From: Croceicoccus sp. YJ47
GTDB taxonomy: Bacteria; Pseudomonadota; Alphaproteobacteria; Sphingomonadales; Sphingomonadaceae
Length of the DNA: 64,000 nt
Assembly: GCF_016745095.1 (NCBI RefSeq)
Contig: NZ_CP067087.1
Coordinates: 1,414,501-1,478,500 of the forward strand
Direction: 5' to 3'
This document shows positions 27,097 to 30,959 of the stretch, in pieces; within the stretch, counting starts at the first letter, position 1; every line of letters starts with the position of its first letter. Under the pieces are notes generated by a model. It was not told the origin of the DNA, did not search any database, and saw only the letters and a program-made list of their open reading frames with translations. The position numbers and the translations under genes are program-made.

Positions 27097-27990
27097 ATGC
27101 CCGAAACCAATTTGAAGACCGTGCTGGACATCCTCAAGGACGATGAGACGGGCGTCCTCACCGACTGGATCGAACAGGCCGACGAGGACGGCGCCAAGCG
27201 CAGCGACCTGTTCTCCGAACGCGAGGAACGCGACCAGGCCGCGAGCCTGCTGCGCGCGTTCCGTTCCGGCGTGCGCGACGGATATCGCGACGGCGATTTC
27301 GATCTGGAGGACGATTACTGGGCCGATCTGCGCGGGATCCTGGCGGAAATCACGTATGAACGCGTCGAACGCGGCGTGTTGCCGAGCGAGATGGCCTCCT
27401 TCGTGCTCAGCCTCAAGGCGACCATGTTCGAGCGGCTCAAGGAACGGTTGAAAGATGAGCCGGACCGGCTGGTCAGTGAAATCCTGCTCGTGACGAAGGC
27501 GATCGACGCCTTTGCCATCTACACGACCGAGGTGTTCATCCGCGAGCGCGAGCAGGTCATCGAACGCCAGCGTGACGAGATGCTGGAACTGTCGACCCCG
27601 GTCGTCGAATTGTGGGACAAGGTGCTCACCCTCCCGCTCATCGGCACGCTCGACAGCCTGCGTGCGCAGGAGGTGATGGAAAACCTGCTCGAGGCGATCG
27701 TGGCAAAGCAGGCGGAGGTCGTCATCGTCGACATCACCGGGGTCAAGACCGTGGATACGCAGGTGGCACAGCATCTGCTGCGCACCGCCGCCGCCGTCCG
27801 GCTCATGGGCGCGCAATGCATCGTGAGCGGGATCAGCCCGAAGATCGCGCAGACCATGGTGCAGCTCGGCGTGGACGTGGGCGAGGTGAAGACGCGCTCG
27901 TCGATCCGCAATGCGCTCACCGATGCGCTCACCGCCGTGGGCGTGGCCATTCTCCCGATCGAGCGGCTCGACCGCGTCACGGCAAAATGA
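27097..27990 (+). CDS. rsbR: RsbR-like stressosome sensor (RsbRD N-terminal + STAS)
   Basis: Cytoplasmic protein of 297 aa. Residues 1-145 form an all-helical RsbRD-type N-terminal sensor domain, 145-165 a charged linker helix (REQVIERQRDEM), and 168-280 a STAS domain (LSTPVVELWDKVLTLPLIGTLD). In STAS, Thr221 (KTVDT) and Thr253 (KIAQT) lie at positions matching the threonines that RsbT phosphorylates in Bacillus RsbRA. The ATG at 27097 has a weak ribosome site; the open frame upstream lacks family similarity. The next gene's ATG overlaps its stop. It should form the sensory shell of a stressosome with RsbS. The signal is unknown. Confidence 0.88.
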   Translation: MPETNLKTVLDILKDDETGVLTDWIEQADEDGAKRSDLFSEREERDQAASLLRAFRSGVRDGYRDGDFDLEDDYWADLRGILAEITYERVERGVLPSEMASFVLSLKATMFERLKERLKDEPDRLVSEILLVTKAIDAFAIYTTEVFIREREQVIERQRDEMLELSTPVVELWDKVLTLPLIGTLDSLRAQEVMENLLEAIVAKQAEVVIVDITGVKTVDTQVAQHLLRTAAAVRLMGAQCIVSGISPKIAQTMVQLGVDVGEVKTRSSIRNALTDALTAVGVAILPIERLDRVTAK

Positions 27991-28361
27991 ACGCCGCGTC
28001 CATCTATTCGGTCGAGGGCATATTGCTGGTCTCGATCCGGGCCGACATCGCCGACAGCGACATCATCGATCTGCAGGATGTCCTGTCGCAGCGGATCGCC
28101 GATACGGGCGCGCGCGGCGTGGTGATCGACATTGCCGAGCTCGACATCGTGGATACGTTCGTGGGCCGCGTGCTGGCGCAGGTGACGTCCATATCGAAGC
28201 TGCTCGATGCCGAAACCTATGTCGTCGGCATGCGGCCTGCGGTCGCCATGACGCTGGTCGAACTGGGCATGTATCTGCCCGGCAATCGCACCGCCCTCAC
28301 GCTGAGCCATGCGCTGGCCCGGATGCGTGAGGACGGGCTGACGGACGATAGCGCCGGATGA
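27987..28361 (+). CDS. rsbS: RsbS-like STAS protein
   Basis: Single STAS domain of 124 aa; the ATG overlaps the rsbR stop by 4 bp (ATGA). It has VVIDIAELDIVDTFVGRVL and ETYVVGMRPAVAMTLVELG, the RsbS signature. The phosphorylated Ser59 of Bacillus RsbS corresponds to Thr57 here (IVDTF), a conservative change. In known stressosomes RsbS anchors RsbT and releases it when phosphorylated. Its overlap with both rsbR and rsbT implies fixed stoichiometric production. Confidence 0.9.
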   Translation: MNAASIYSVEGILLVSIRADIADSDIIDLQDVLSQRIADTGARGVVIDIAELDIVDTFVGRVLAQVTSISKLLDAETYVVGMRPAVAMTLVELGMYLPGNRTALTLSHALARMREDGLTDDSAG

Positions 28362-28774
28362 TCCTCAAGGGCGGTCGCAGGATCGCGCTGCTGGACCTCG
28401 TCACCGATCGCGACGTCGCCATCGCCCGCCGGCGGGTCGGCGATGCCATGGCAAAGCGCGGATGCCGCGAATTGATGCAGACGCGTTTCGTCACGGCGGT
28501 GAGCGAGATCGCCCGCAATGCCATCGTGCACGGCGGGGGCGGGCGGCTCGCGATCTACGAGTTTCCGGGCAATCGCAAGATCGGCATCGAATGCATCGAC
28601 GAGGGGCCGGGCATCGCCGATGTGGAGCAGGCGATGACCGACGGTTTTTCGACGCGCGACAGCCTCGGTCGCGGATTGGGTGGAGCCAAAAGGCTGTCTC
28701 ATGAGTTCGAGATCGATACCCATGGAGAAACAGGCACCATTGTCCGCATGACCGGATTGCAGAACACACGATGA
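28358..28774 (+). CDS. rsbT: RsbT-like serine/threonine kinase (switch protein)
   Basis: GHKL-fold kinase of 138 aa, overlapping rsbS and the next gene by 4 bp each. Motifs are the N-box EIARNAIVHGGGG, G1 DEGPGI and G2 RGLGGAKRL, complete for ATP binding. By homology it is held by RsbR-RsbS, phosphorylates both on stress, then leaves to act on an output partner. In Bacillus the partner is phosphatase RsbU; no RsbU follows here, so the free RsbT may act on the kinase or phosphatase fusions downstream. Confidence 0.9.
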   Translation: MILKGGRRIALLDLVTDRDVAIARRRVGDAMAKRGCRELMQTRFVTAVSEIARNAIVHGGGGRLAIYEFPGNRKIGIECIDEGPGIADVEQAMTDGFSTRDSLGRGLGGAKRLSHEFEIDTHGETGTIVRMTGLQNTR

Positions 28775-29778
28775 GCGAATGGCTCAAGATCGCGGAACCC
28801 AGCACGGTTGCGGAGGCGCGCCGCCGTGCGCGCCGCCATGCGGGTGCGGCGGGGCTCGGCTCGATCGCCACCGAACATGTCGCCATCGTCGCCACCGAAA
28901 TCGCGCAGAACATCCTGCGCCACGGCGGCGGGGGCCGGATGCTGACCTGCATCACCGGTGGGGCGGGGCATGTGCGGCTGCATGTGATCGGCATCGACGA
29001 CGGGCCGGGCATCGAACGGCTCGGCCGGATGATGAAGGACGGCGTGTCCACCCGCCATTCCGCCGGGACCGGGCTCGGCGCGATCGCGCGCCTGTCCGAC
29101 CGGTTCGACATCATGACCGCGCGGGGCAAGGGCACCACCGTCATGAGCGAGTTCGTGCCCAAGACCGCCGCGATGAGCGATCTTTGCGACGAGGCCGGCA
29201 TGCGCACCCCTTTTCCGGGAGAGCGGGAATGCGGCGACCAGATCGCGATGAAGCAGGCCGGCCCGGTGAGCATCTACATGCTGTGCGACGGGCTGGGCCA
29301 TGGGGCGAAGGCCGCCGTCGCCGCGGACACCGCACGGCGCGTGTTTCTCGACACGCCGGGGGAGGATCCGGCCGCTTTGCTCGCCGCGATGGGCACAGGG
29401 CTTGCGGGCACGCGCGGGGCGGTGGCCGCGGTCGTGACCGTGGACCGGGCGCAGGGGGCGCTGTCCTATGCCGGCATCGGCAATATCTCGACGATGATCG
29501 TGCAGGGCGGCGCGATCAAGCGGCTGCCGGTGCGGGACGGCCTGCTCGGCGGGCGGGCGGCGTCCCCCCATACCGAGCAATGCGCGATTGCGCCCGATGC
29601 GACCGTGCTGATGCATTCGGACGGGGTGAGCACGCTGCGCGGACTGGAGCGGCGCGGTCCGCTGTTTTATCGCAGCGCGCCGGTCATCGCCGCGACCCTG
29701 CTGGACGAAAACACGCGCGGCCGCGACGATGCCAGCATTCTTGCCGCCCGCATGACCCCGGCGAGGGTGGGCGAATGA
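28771..29778 (+). CDS. RsbT-like ATPase fused to RsbX/SpoIIE-type phosphatase
   Basis: Two-domain protein of 335 aa. Residues 1-130 form a second RsbT-like ATPase (N-box EIAQNILRHGGGG, G1 DDGPGI, G2 GTGLGAI). Residues 150-328 form a PPM/SpoIIE phosphatase with CGDQ (154-157), DGLGHG (173-178), HSDG (282-285) and GRDDASI (317-323), the metal-site motifs of RsbX. RsbX in Bacillus resets the stressosome by dephosphorylating RsbR and RsbS. Here the reset enzyme carries a kinase-fold partner in one chain. The gene overlaps rsbT and the histidine kinase by 4 bp each. Confidence 0.87.
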   Translation: MSEWLKIAEPSTVAEARRRARRHAGAAGLGSIATEHVAIVATEIAQNILRHGGGGRMLTCITGGAGHVRLHVIGIDDGPGIERLGRMMKDGVSTRHSAGTGLGAIARLSDRFDIMTARGKGTTVMSEFVPKTAAMSDLCDEAGMRTPFPGERECGDQIAMKQAGPVSIYMLCDGLGHGAKAAVAADTARRVFLDTPGEDPAALLAAMGTGLAGTRGAVAAVVTVDRAQGALSYAGIGNISTMIVQGGAIKRLPVRDGLLGGRAASPHTEQCAIAPDATVLMHSDGVSTLRGLERRGPLFYRSAPVIAATLLDENTRGRDDASILAARMTPARVGE

Positions 29779-30959
29779 TCGACATCATCACCGTCCGCAT
29801 CGCCGCGGAGGCCGATATCGCCCGCGTCCGGCAGGTTGCCGACAAGGTCGCGCAATCCTTCGGCCTGGAAAGCTTCGCGCGCACCCGCATGGTGACCGCC
29901 GTGCTCGAAATTTCGCGCAATGCGCTTCAATACGGGGGCGGCGGGCAGGTGCGTTTTTCCGCCACGCCGAAACCGGGCGGTTCCGAAATCGGCGTGCGCG
30001 TCACCGATCAGGGCACCGGCATCGACAATCCCGCCGCATTCGAGCGCGAGCGGCGCCCCTATCTCGAAACGAAGGCCGCGACCCGCGGGCTGGGCCTGGG
30101 GTTGAGCGGGGTTAAGCGGCTCGCCGACAATTTCGACATCGCCTCCTCGCCGCAGGGGACGCGCGTGGCGATGGCCTTTTTCGTGCCCGTCCCCGCCGAC
30201 GAAATCGCCCGGCGCGCAGCCGCGGCGGCCGAAGCGGTGCTCGGCCTTGGCAGTGCGGACCCCATCGCCGAACTCTCGCGTCAGAACCGCGAGCTTGCCG
30301 CCGCGATGGCGGAGCGCGAACTGCTCATCGACGAGGTGCACCACCGCACCGGCAACAATCTCGCCCTCATCGTCAGCTTCATCCAGATGAGCAAGCGCAA
30401 GGCCGCCTCCCCCGAAACGCGGCAGGCCATGGCGGAGCTGGAGGCGCGGGTGCATTCCGTCGCCCGCGTGCATCAGGAACTCCAACGTGCACAGCAGAGC
30501 GACCGAATCGAATTGCTCCCCCTGCTCGAAAACGTGGCGAAACATGCGAGCGACGCTTTTTCCAGTGTCAATCTTTCCGTCGACATCGACGTGGTAAGCG
30601 AACCGGTGGAGGTCGTGAGCAGCACGGCCATCGATTTCGGCCTGATCGTGGGCGAATTGATAACGAATGCGTTCAAACATGCGTTCGAGGGGCGCAGCAA
30701 GGGCCGCATCGCCATCCGCTTCGATCGCACGGAGGGGACCGATCCGGGCTGGGTCCTGATCGTGCGGGACGACGGGGTCGGCACGCCGGAGGATGCGCGC
30801 CCGGACCGCCCGCAATCGCTGGGCTGGCGCATGATCCGGGCGATGTCCGCGCGCCACGCCGCCAATATCGAAACCGACGGCAGCGACGGGTTCTGCTGCG
30901 CCATCACCTTTCCCCAGTCGGTCGTGCGCGCGCCGAATACCGCCGATACGGACGGGTAA
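29775..30959 (+). CDS. RsbT-like ATPase fused to a HisKA_2 histidine kinase
   Basis: Protein of 394 aa with no membrane segment. Residues 1-138 form a third RsbT-like ATPase (EISRNALQYGGGG, DQGTGI, TRGLGLGLSGVKRL). A linker to about 180 follows, then a HisKA_2 phosphoacceptor helix LLIDEVHHRTGNNLALI with probable phospho-His H189, and a HATPase_c (GELITNAFKHAFEG, RDDGVGTPED). HisKA_2/HWE kinases are the class that feeds PhyR in the alphaproteobacterial general stress response. It is the last gene of the rsb operon (ATG overlaps the previous stop), so it is the likely output. No response regulator is adjacent. Confidence 0.87.
   Translation: MIDIITVRIAAEADIARVRQVADKVAQSFGLESFARTRMVTAVLEISRNALQYGGGGQVRFSATPKPGGSEIGVRVTDQGTGIDNPAAFERERRPYLETKAATRGLGLGLSGVKRLADNFDIASSPQGTRVAMAFFVPVPADEIARRAAAAAEAVLGLGSADPIAELSRQNRELAAAMAERELLIDEVHHRTGNNLALIVSFIQMSKRKAASPETRQAMAELEARVHSVARVHQELQRAQQSDRIELLPLLENVAKHASDAFSSVNLSVDIDVVSEPVEVVSSTAIDFGLIVGELITNAFKHAFEGRSKGRIAIRFDRTEGTDPGWVLIVRDDGVGTPEDARPDRPQSLGWRMIRAMSARHAANIETDGSDGFCCAITFPQSVVRAPNTADTDG

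Follow-up and report, generated by a model that had tools for sequence, protein, structure and literature searches.

What does a stressosome control in an alphaproteobacterium, and through which contacts does it pass on its signal? The question is raised by a 64,000-nucleotide stretch of the Croceicoccus sp. YJ47 genome (contig NZ_CP067087.1, positions 1,414,501 to 1,478,500 of the forward strand; hereafter the window), in which positions 27097-30959 hold five plus-strand open reading frames joined by four junctions, each an ATGA overlap of 4 bp. An initial annotation, made from the letters alone, had read these frames as RsbR, RsbS, RsbT, an ATPase-phosphatase fusion (here TX) and an ATPase-histidine kinase fusion (here TK); its coordinates and frames are correct, and Pfam, with all calls on the five proteins above Pfam's own cut-offs, agrees with the identities:

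27097..27990, + strand: rsbR, with Pfam RsbRD_N and STAS
27987..28361, + strand: rsbS, with Pfam STAS, a single-STAS scaffold protein
28358..28774, + strand: rsbT, with Pfam HATPase_c_2, a stand-alone GHKL switch kinase
28771..29778, + strand: TX, with Pfam HATPase_c_2 and SpoIIE, a putative feedback phosphatase
29775..30959, + strand: TK, with Pfam HATPase_c_2 (two stretches) and HisKA_2, a putative output kinase

The explanation that we put forward, and to which as a whole we give an even chance, is that these genes encode an RSTX-type stressosome cassette in which both effectors would dock through RsbT-like (T) domains of their own and TK would signal to PhyR. It starts from the observed gene content and order, the domain make-up, the conserved catalytic and phosphosite positions, the grouping of three kinds of T domain, the conservation of the cassette and its co-occurrence with PhyR, from which we infer particle assembly, T-domain docking, the direction of the switch and PhyR as the target. 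We take the five genes to be real because their divergence is mostly synonymous and the five-gene order recurs elsewhere: codon differences from Croceicoccus hydrothermalis (L051) are mainly synonymous in all five (synonymous/non-synonymous: rsbR 45/10, rsbS 19/1, rsbT 13/4, TX 54/21, TK 56/18).

Beyond the stand-alone RsbT, the operon encodes two further domains of this kind, one at the head of each effector. In TX, an RsbX-type PP2C encoded immediately 3' of rsbT, the RsbT-like domain is an N-terminal extra, and in TK it precedes a complete kinase:

TX, residues 8-124: RsbT-like domain (HATPase_c_2, 3e-11)
TX, residues about 145-330: RsbX/SpoIIE-type PP2C (SpoIIE, 3.7e-09)
TK, residues 1-140: RsbT/SpoIIAB-type domain (HATPase_c_2, 6.3e-26)
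TK, E187-VHHRTGNN: HisKA_2 dimerization and histidine phosphotransfer domain with an HRxxN motif (HisKA_2, 5.2e-17)
TK, residues about 244-385: ATPase domain

RsbT itself (HATPase_c_2, 2.8e-12) has SpoIIAB as its best PDB match (8.4e-11), and TX matches the SpoIIE-type phosphatase 3zt9 (4e-21) and Bacillus RsbX (3w40, 7.6e-19). The best PDB sequence match of TK is the kinase EL346 (1.3e-26, kinase part), and H190, R191 and N194 are invariant among 33 sequences; against the PhyK family NF051872 of NCBIfam, TK scores 73.9 bits (curated cut-off 750) and aligns over the kinase core only. In the predicted TK model (predicted local distance difference test score 81.8, predicted template-modelling score 0.65), residues 1-140 superimpose on SpoIIAB 1l0o_A (Z 16.0, root-mean-square deviation (rmsd) 2.8, 133 aligned residues), residues 3-138 on RsbW 6m36_I (Z 15.8, rmsd 1.6, 103 aligned) and residues 175-386 on EL346 4r3a_A (Z 19.2, rmsd 6.4, 195 aligned); as this list holds one alignment per PDB entry, kinase ATPase domains may fit the N-terminal domain no worse.

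The constancy of these T domains became apparent from an RsbR-anchored pattern scan of 84,980 species genomes, from which the best 80 of 89 relatives were kept. A T domain is N-terminal in every PP2C gene seen (75/75 loci) and in every fifth gene seen (73/73 loci), with 40 bits or more in 71 of the latter; the two weak cases, L093 (30 bits) and L114 (17 bits), have no N-terminal Pfam match. Behind the fifth-gene T domain, by contrast, the kinase type varies by lineage: it is HisKA_2 in 36 of the 73, another kinase in 36 and cut off in one, with Pfam HisKA found in 9/9 scanned non-HisKA_2 fifth genes (L084, L092, L093, L094, L098, L102, L105, L114 and L117) and a receiver often present in the same protein or the next gene. 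The N-box of RsbT is intact, with E50 and N54 kept in 78/78 loci; the ATP-site Glu and Asn are likewise both present in 77/77 TX proteins, and in TK in 73/73 and 71/73, respectively. An Arg in helix 1 is invariant in all three proteins: R24 in RsbT (78/78), R17/R18 in TX (77/77) and R19 in TK (73/73). RsbT R24 aligns with residue 20 of SpoIIAB, whose Arg20 touches its partners. In a tree built from 99 ATPase domains taken from 25 selected loci, RsbT, the TX T domains, the TK T domains and the kinases' own catalytic ATP-binding domains form one group each (Shimodaira-Hasegawa-like approximate likelihood ratio supports 86, 77, 72 and 91). Given this grouping and a constant T domain ahead of a variable kinase, the fusion of a T domain to each enzyme seems to date back to an ancestor and to have outlasted exchanges of the kinase part. 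An invariant T domain ahead of a variable kinase is also what is expected of a docking plug, and we infer that the phosphatase and the kinase dock via their own T domains.

The HisKA_2 version of the module is found together with PhyR. A near-full-length PhyR is encoded in 36/36 searched genomes whose TK carries HisKA_2, compared with 1/32 with another kinase (L102), and in 4/4 Steroidobacteraceae genomes in which a sixth gene encodes a REC-HisKA_2 protein. The comparison leaves out eight loci whose fifth gene is cut off or absent, two with PhyR (L059, L091) and six without a full-length PhyR (L089, L097, L099, L108, L126, L127); it does not include L078, and L076 and L072 are the same genome. 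The non-HisKA_2 labels come from Pfam on the fifth or sixth gene in 9/32 loci (L084, L088, L092, L093, L098, L102, L105, L114, L117) and from an in-house model in the other 23. That model's K_HisKA2 label on the sixth genes of L093 and L098 was wrong, as Pfam finds HisKA there, and both were counted as non-HisKA_2; in L084, L087 and L090 less than 1.3 kb follows the fifth gene and a sixth-gene HisKA_2 is possible. Several of the non-HisKA_2 genomes are metagenome-assembled, so the absence of PhyR from them may reflect incompleteness. By the in-house receiver model, none of the 36 HisKA_2 loci holds a receiver gene. Kinases of the HWE/HisKA2 type are described as activating the general stress response of Alphaproteobacteria (PMC12148442; PMC5898713; all papers are cited here from parts of their text), and in the Croceicoccus genome PhyR, a CHASE-HWE kinase, NepR and an ECF sigma factor are encoded side by side. 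The initial annotation had argued that a stressosome in an alphaproteobacterium needs an output different from PhyR-NepR-EcfG; this is probably backwards, since HisKA_2/HWE kinases drive PhyR (PMC12148442) and PhyR is present in every searched genome with the HisKA_2 version. These data are consistent with HisKA_2 having been added where PhyR already exists, and, judged from sequence, PhyR-NepR-EcfG is most likely the output, as a best guess rather than a demonstration.

A SigB-type output was rejected because no sigma factor or RsbU, RsbV or RsbW is encoded beside the operon: Pfam finds no sigB, rsbU, rsbV or rsbW in the locus or its adjoining genes. The initial annotation's statement that these are missing holds at the locus and fails genome-wide for RsbV/RsbW-type proteins, as a separate RbaY/RbaV/RbaW-like trio encodes such proteins elsewhere in the genome.

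In two Steroidobacteraceae loci, L178 (G891:C2:317000-328000) and L179 (G893:C11:1630000-1641000), the genes for PhyR and NepR neighbour that of an EcfG-like sigma factor (46% identity), and the PhyR cluster holds a HisKA2-like kinase (by the in-house model) and EcfG-type promoter motifs; in the L094 genome the PhyR cluster shares a contig with the stressosome. S. gossypii, of this family, belongs to the Gammaproteobacteria, although EcfG has been described as confined to the Alphaproteobacteria (PMC3892343). No EcfG-type motif was found upstream of the stressosome in the four Steroidobacteraceae.

Several observations weigh against this explanation. The co-occurrence of PhyR is confounded by ancestry, the kinase-type label changing only 2 times on the module tree, so that the association rests on about two origins, and an independent-pairs test is unable to reach significance. 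NepR is detected by Pfam in 34/36 HisKA_2 genomes, both misses being Pacificimonas with PhyR present. The strict EcfG-type motif (GGAAC-N16/17-CGTT) is absent from the 400 bp upstream of rsbR in 37/37 loci, and from the window. As to the T domains, the supports for their groups are moderate, with none starred and a long-branch warning, and the TK T domain taken alone matches, by sequence in the PDB, histidine-kinase ATPase domains and not SpoIIAB.

It is also conceivable, if somewhat unlikely, that a stressosome with docked T domains uses its kinase to signal to a response regulator other than PhyR, for example an RbaY/RbaV/RbaW-like REC-SpoIIE protein. The source genome has 42 receiver matches and, apart from the stressosome, a REC-SpoIIE, STAS and HATPase_c_2 trio at C1:2236893-2238905 (L168:1894-3906) of a kind that works in Rhodobacter capsulatus (PMC3999984), and the operon lacks an EcfG promoter. 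However, the HisKA_2 version was found only with PhyR among the searched genomes, and HisKA_2 kinases are typically general stress response kinases (PMC12148442). A simple receiver-motif search of source-genome loci, covering part of the 42 receivers, found no SdrG homologue.

We consider it improbable that the module is an ordinary Vibrio-type RSTX system, with a released RsbT that acts in trans on the downstream kinase, by phosphorylating or activating it, and with TX and TK T domains that serve in ATP-binding regulation or dimerisation and have no part in docking. GHKL domains are able to dimerise, but a merely regulatory role fits poorly with a fifth gene whose constant part is the T domain while its kinase varies, or with the conservation of the helix-1 Arg and the N-box residues.

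The scaffold proteins resemble those of solved stressosomes. The predicted features of RsbR and RsbS are:

RsbR, residues 11-114: RsbRD_N sensor-like domain (Pfam, 5.1e-18)
RsbR, residues 122-164: long helix in the predicted model
RsbR, residues 171-271: STAS domain (Pfam, 1.8e-15)
RsbR, S187 and T221: predicted phosphosites, from alignment
RsbS, T57: predicted phosphosite, from alignment

The best PDB sequence match of RsbR is chain 7o0i_B of the Vibrio vulnificus stressosome (1.4e-43, over the STAS part), followed by Listeria, and its predicted model (predicted local distance difference test score 83.6, predicted template-modelling score 0.54) has the Listeria stressosome 7b0u as top Foldseek match (6.9e-13, template-modelling score 0.45, rmsd 9.1). 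RsbS (STAS, Pfam 2.5e-09) matches, as a profile, the RsbS proteins of Listeria, Bacillus and Moorella best in the PDB (2.1e-25 to 1.7e-23). The S187 and T221 columns are kept in 80/80 RsbR sequences, and the RsbS phosphosite column is Ser (40) or Thr (39) in 79/79; RsbR S187/T221 and RsbS T57 presumably correspond to the Bacillus phosphosites T171/T205 and S59. PDB entries 9o3o, 9o4r and 9o5l vary (A, T, E) at the RsbR residue aligned with S187, and 9o4r carries Ala at the position of RsbS T57. That RsbR and RsbS are small partner-switch proteins which form no particle at all is very improbable, as both match proteins solved in stressosomes (1.4e-43 and 2.1e-25) and the top fold match of the RsbR model is a stressosome RsbR.

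According to the explanation with docked T domains and PhyR as target, RsbR, with its RsbRD_N sensor and STAS domain, and RsbS would build a scaffold whose STAS proteins receive RsbT as well as the T domains carried by TX and TK. Three kinds of T-type ligand would thus be interchangeable on the particle: the switch kinase RsbT, the eraser TX and, for output, TK. Upon stress, RsbT would phosphorylate RsbS (T57) and RsbR (S187/T221) and thereby loosen the docked T domains; TK, freed or re-oriented, would autophosphorylate at the HisKA_2 histidine and pass the phosphate to PhyR, either directly or via a single-domain regulator of the SdrG/MrrA type and PhyT. NepR would thereby be titrated and EcfG set free, while TX would reset the particle by dephosphorylating RsbS and RsbR. 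More tentatively, and a little short of an even chance in our estimation, the same principle may hold for widespread adaptor-free stressosomes, in which the T domains of phosphatase and kinase would plug into the particle sites that RsbT uses and the particle would act as a socket for interchangeable kinases, HisKA_2 having been added in Alphaproteobacteria and independently in Steroidobacteraceae to give a direct drive of PhyR-NepR-EcfG.

The module is a rare and patchy accessory cassette. In kinase searches of sampled genomes, with the source genome counted each time, the full-length TK fusion occurs in 2/149 genomes of the family, 4/396 of the order (where two more genomes are matched by the kinase core only) and 2/385 of the class. 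The initial annotation had called the locus a stressosome-type module of unusual five-gene arrangement in an alphaproteobacterium and had proposed to look for the gene order in relatives. The Pfam domains and the conserved order bear this out: the complete order is kept in five further genomes, with identities to the window of 63-82% for RsbR, 66-76% for RsbS, 50-61% for RsbT, 43-56% for TX and 44-59% for TK, and the order R-S-T-TX-TK with HisKA_2 is found in 36/80 RsbR-anchored loci, all from genera that we take to be Alphaproteobacteria. An uncultured Croceicoccus has the closest RsbR (99% identity). Next to the operon, in a source genome of one 3.35-Mb contig, are two genes that match nitronate monooxygenase and TonB_C. 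Among 39 loci, no family of flanking genes recurs in more than 6. L127 was rejected as a stressosome locus, receivers following its RsbR-like gene. At L048:12312-16694 (G313), a frame of 1460 amino acids about 1.7 kb past the module matches the in-house HisKA2 model, and no such frame is listed beside the other HisKA_2-type modules.

How does this arrangement compare with known systems? The initial annotation was right that RsbRST modules with varied outputs are known: RSTX modules without SigB are widespread, and those of the globin-sensor group have eleven downstream types, including HisKA/REC phosphorelays in Ruegeria (PMC9237108). It had also assigned the first four genes to the Bacillus order, which is in fact rsbRSTUVW-sigB-rsbX, so that R-S-T-X matches the four-gene module of Proteobacteria and others (PMC9237108), not that of Bacillus. 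The rsbRSTX-D1-D2 operon of Vibrio vulnificus shares with the Croceicoccus locus the R-S-T-X order, the lack of a SigB cascade and a two-component output co-transcribed downstream (PMC9237108; PMC10436020), and its RsbR (7o0i) is the best solved sequence match, but its sensor is a globin whereas that of Croceicoccus is RsbRD_N. In the globin-type clusters X is a single-domain PP2C, whereas the Croceicoccus X carries a T domain, and the outputs given for them are PP2C, cyclic di-GMP and HisKA/REC, with no HisKA_2 named in the parts of that paper used here (PMC9237108). Bacillus subtilis and Listeria have homologues of RsbR, RsbS and RsbT with matching phosphosite positions; their RsbT contacts the N-terminal domain of RsbU (PMC12143880), whereas the Croceicoccus locus lacks RsbU_N, RsbV, RsbW and SigB. 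None of the five proteins has a Pfam match to RsbU_N at E 0.1, although a highly diverged copy is possible. Histidine kinases bearing RsbU_N have already been described and, like RsbU_N-GGDEF proteins, place an output enzyme inside a stressosome operon, but their RsbU_N binds RsbT in trans (PMC12143880) whereas the Croceicoccus enzymes have the RsbT-like domain fused. The Paks of Sphingomonas melonis, whose genome likewise has PhyR-NepR-EcfG (PMC5898713), and EL346 (4r3a) share with TK the HisKA_2 core, the HRxxN motif and the lack of an adjoining receiver gene; they differ in that TK has an RsbT-like domain in the sensor position and is encoded within a stressosome operon.

RSTX modules with varied outputs being already published, the T-domain fusions and the HisKA_2 output are a variant of these. 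Among the literature matches listed, no title or abstract opening describes the five-gene arrangement, RsbT-like domains on both enzymes or a HisKA_2 output, although an earlier mention of the fusions is possible. How stressosomes lacking RsbU_N signal to downstream kinases is covered by a proposal only, the interaction of RsbT with the downstream protein having given no positive result in the parts of the paper used here (PMC9237108), and an RsbT-like domain fused to the enzyme would be a simple answer that can be tested. Should TK signal to PhyR, one circuit would unite the SigB-type stressosome with the PhyR-NepR-EcfG switch, and the module may thus connect two stress systems commonly regarded as distinct.

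The genes for PhyR and nepR in the source genome are preceded by the strict EcfG-type motif. Control of the stressosome operon by EcfG was itself rejected on the negative motif scan of the 37 loci and the window, and looser EcfG-like patterns in 4/37 loci (L052, L069, L085, L086) were not accepted as promoters. Position 443 (+ strand) holds the sole GGAAC-N15..18-CGTT (EcfG-like) motif in the 64-kb window. Scans for sigma-70 promoters and terminators gave nothing above chance.

The kinase is also found on 60 plasmid records, 58 of them from Phaeobacter. The one plasmid that we read, Phaeobacter gallaeciensis pGal_A255 (L177, 79959-83777), carries all five genes in the same order, annotated just as STAS or ATP-binding proteins. 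Since Phaeobacter is a culturable marine genus and the kinase is plasmid-borne there, knock-outs are practical. Plasmids outside Rhodobacterales also encode RsbR-like proteins, among them those of Deinococcus (17), Streptomyces (6) and a few others.

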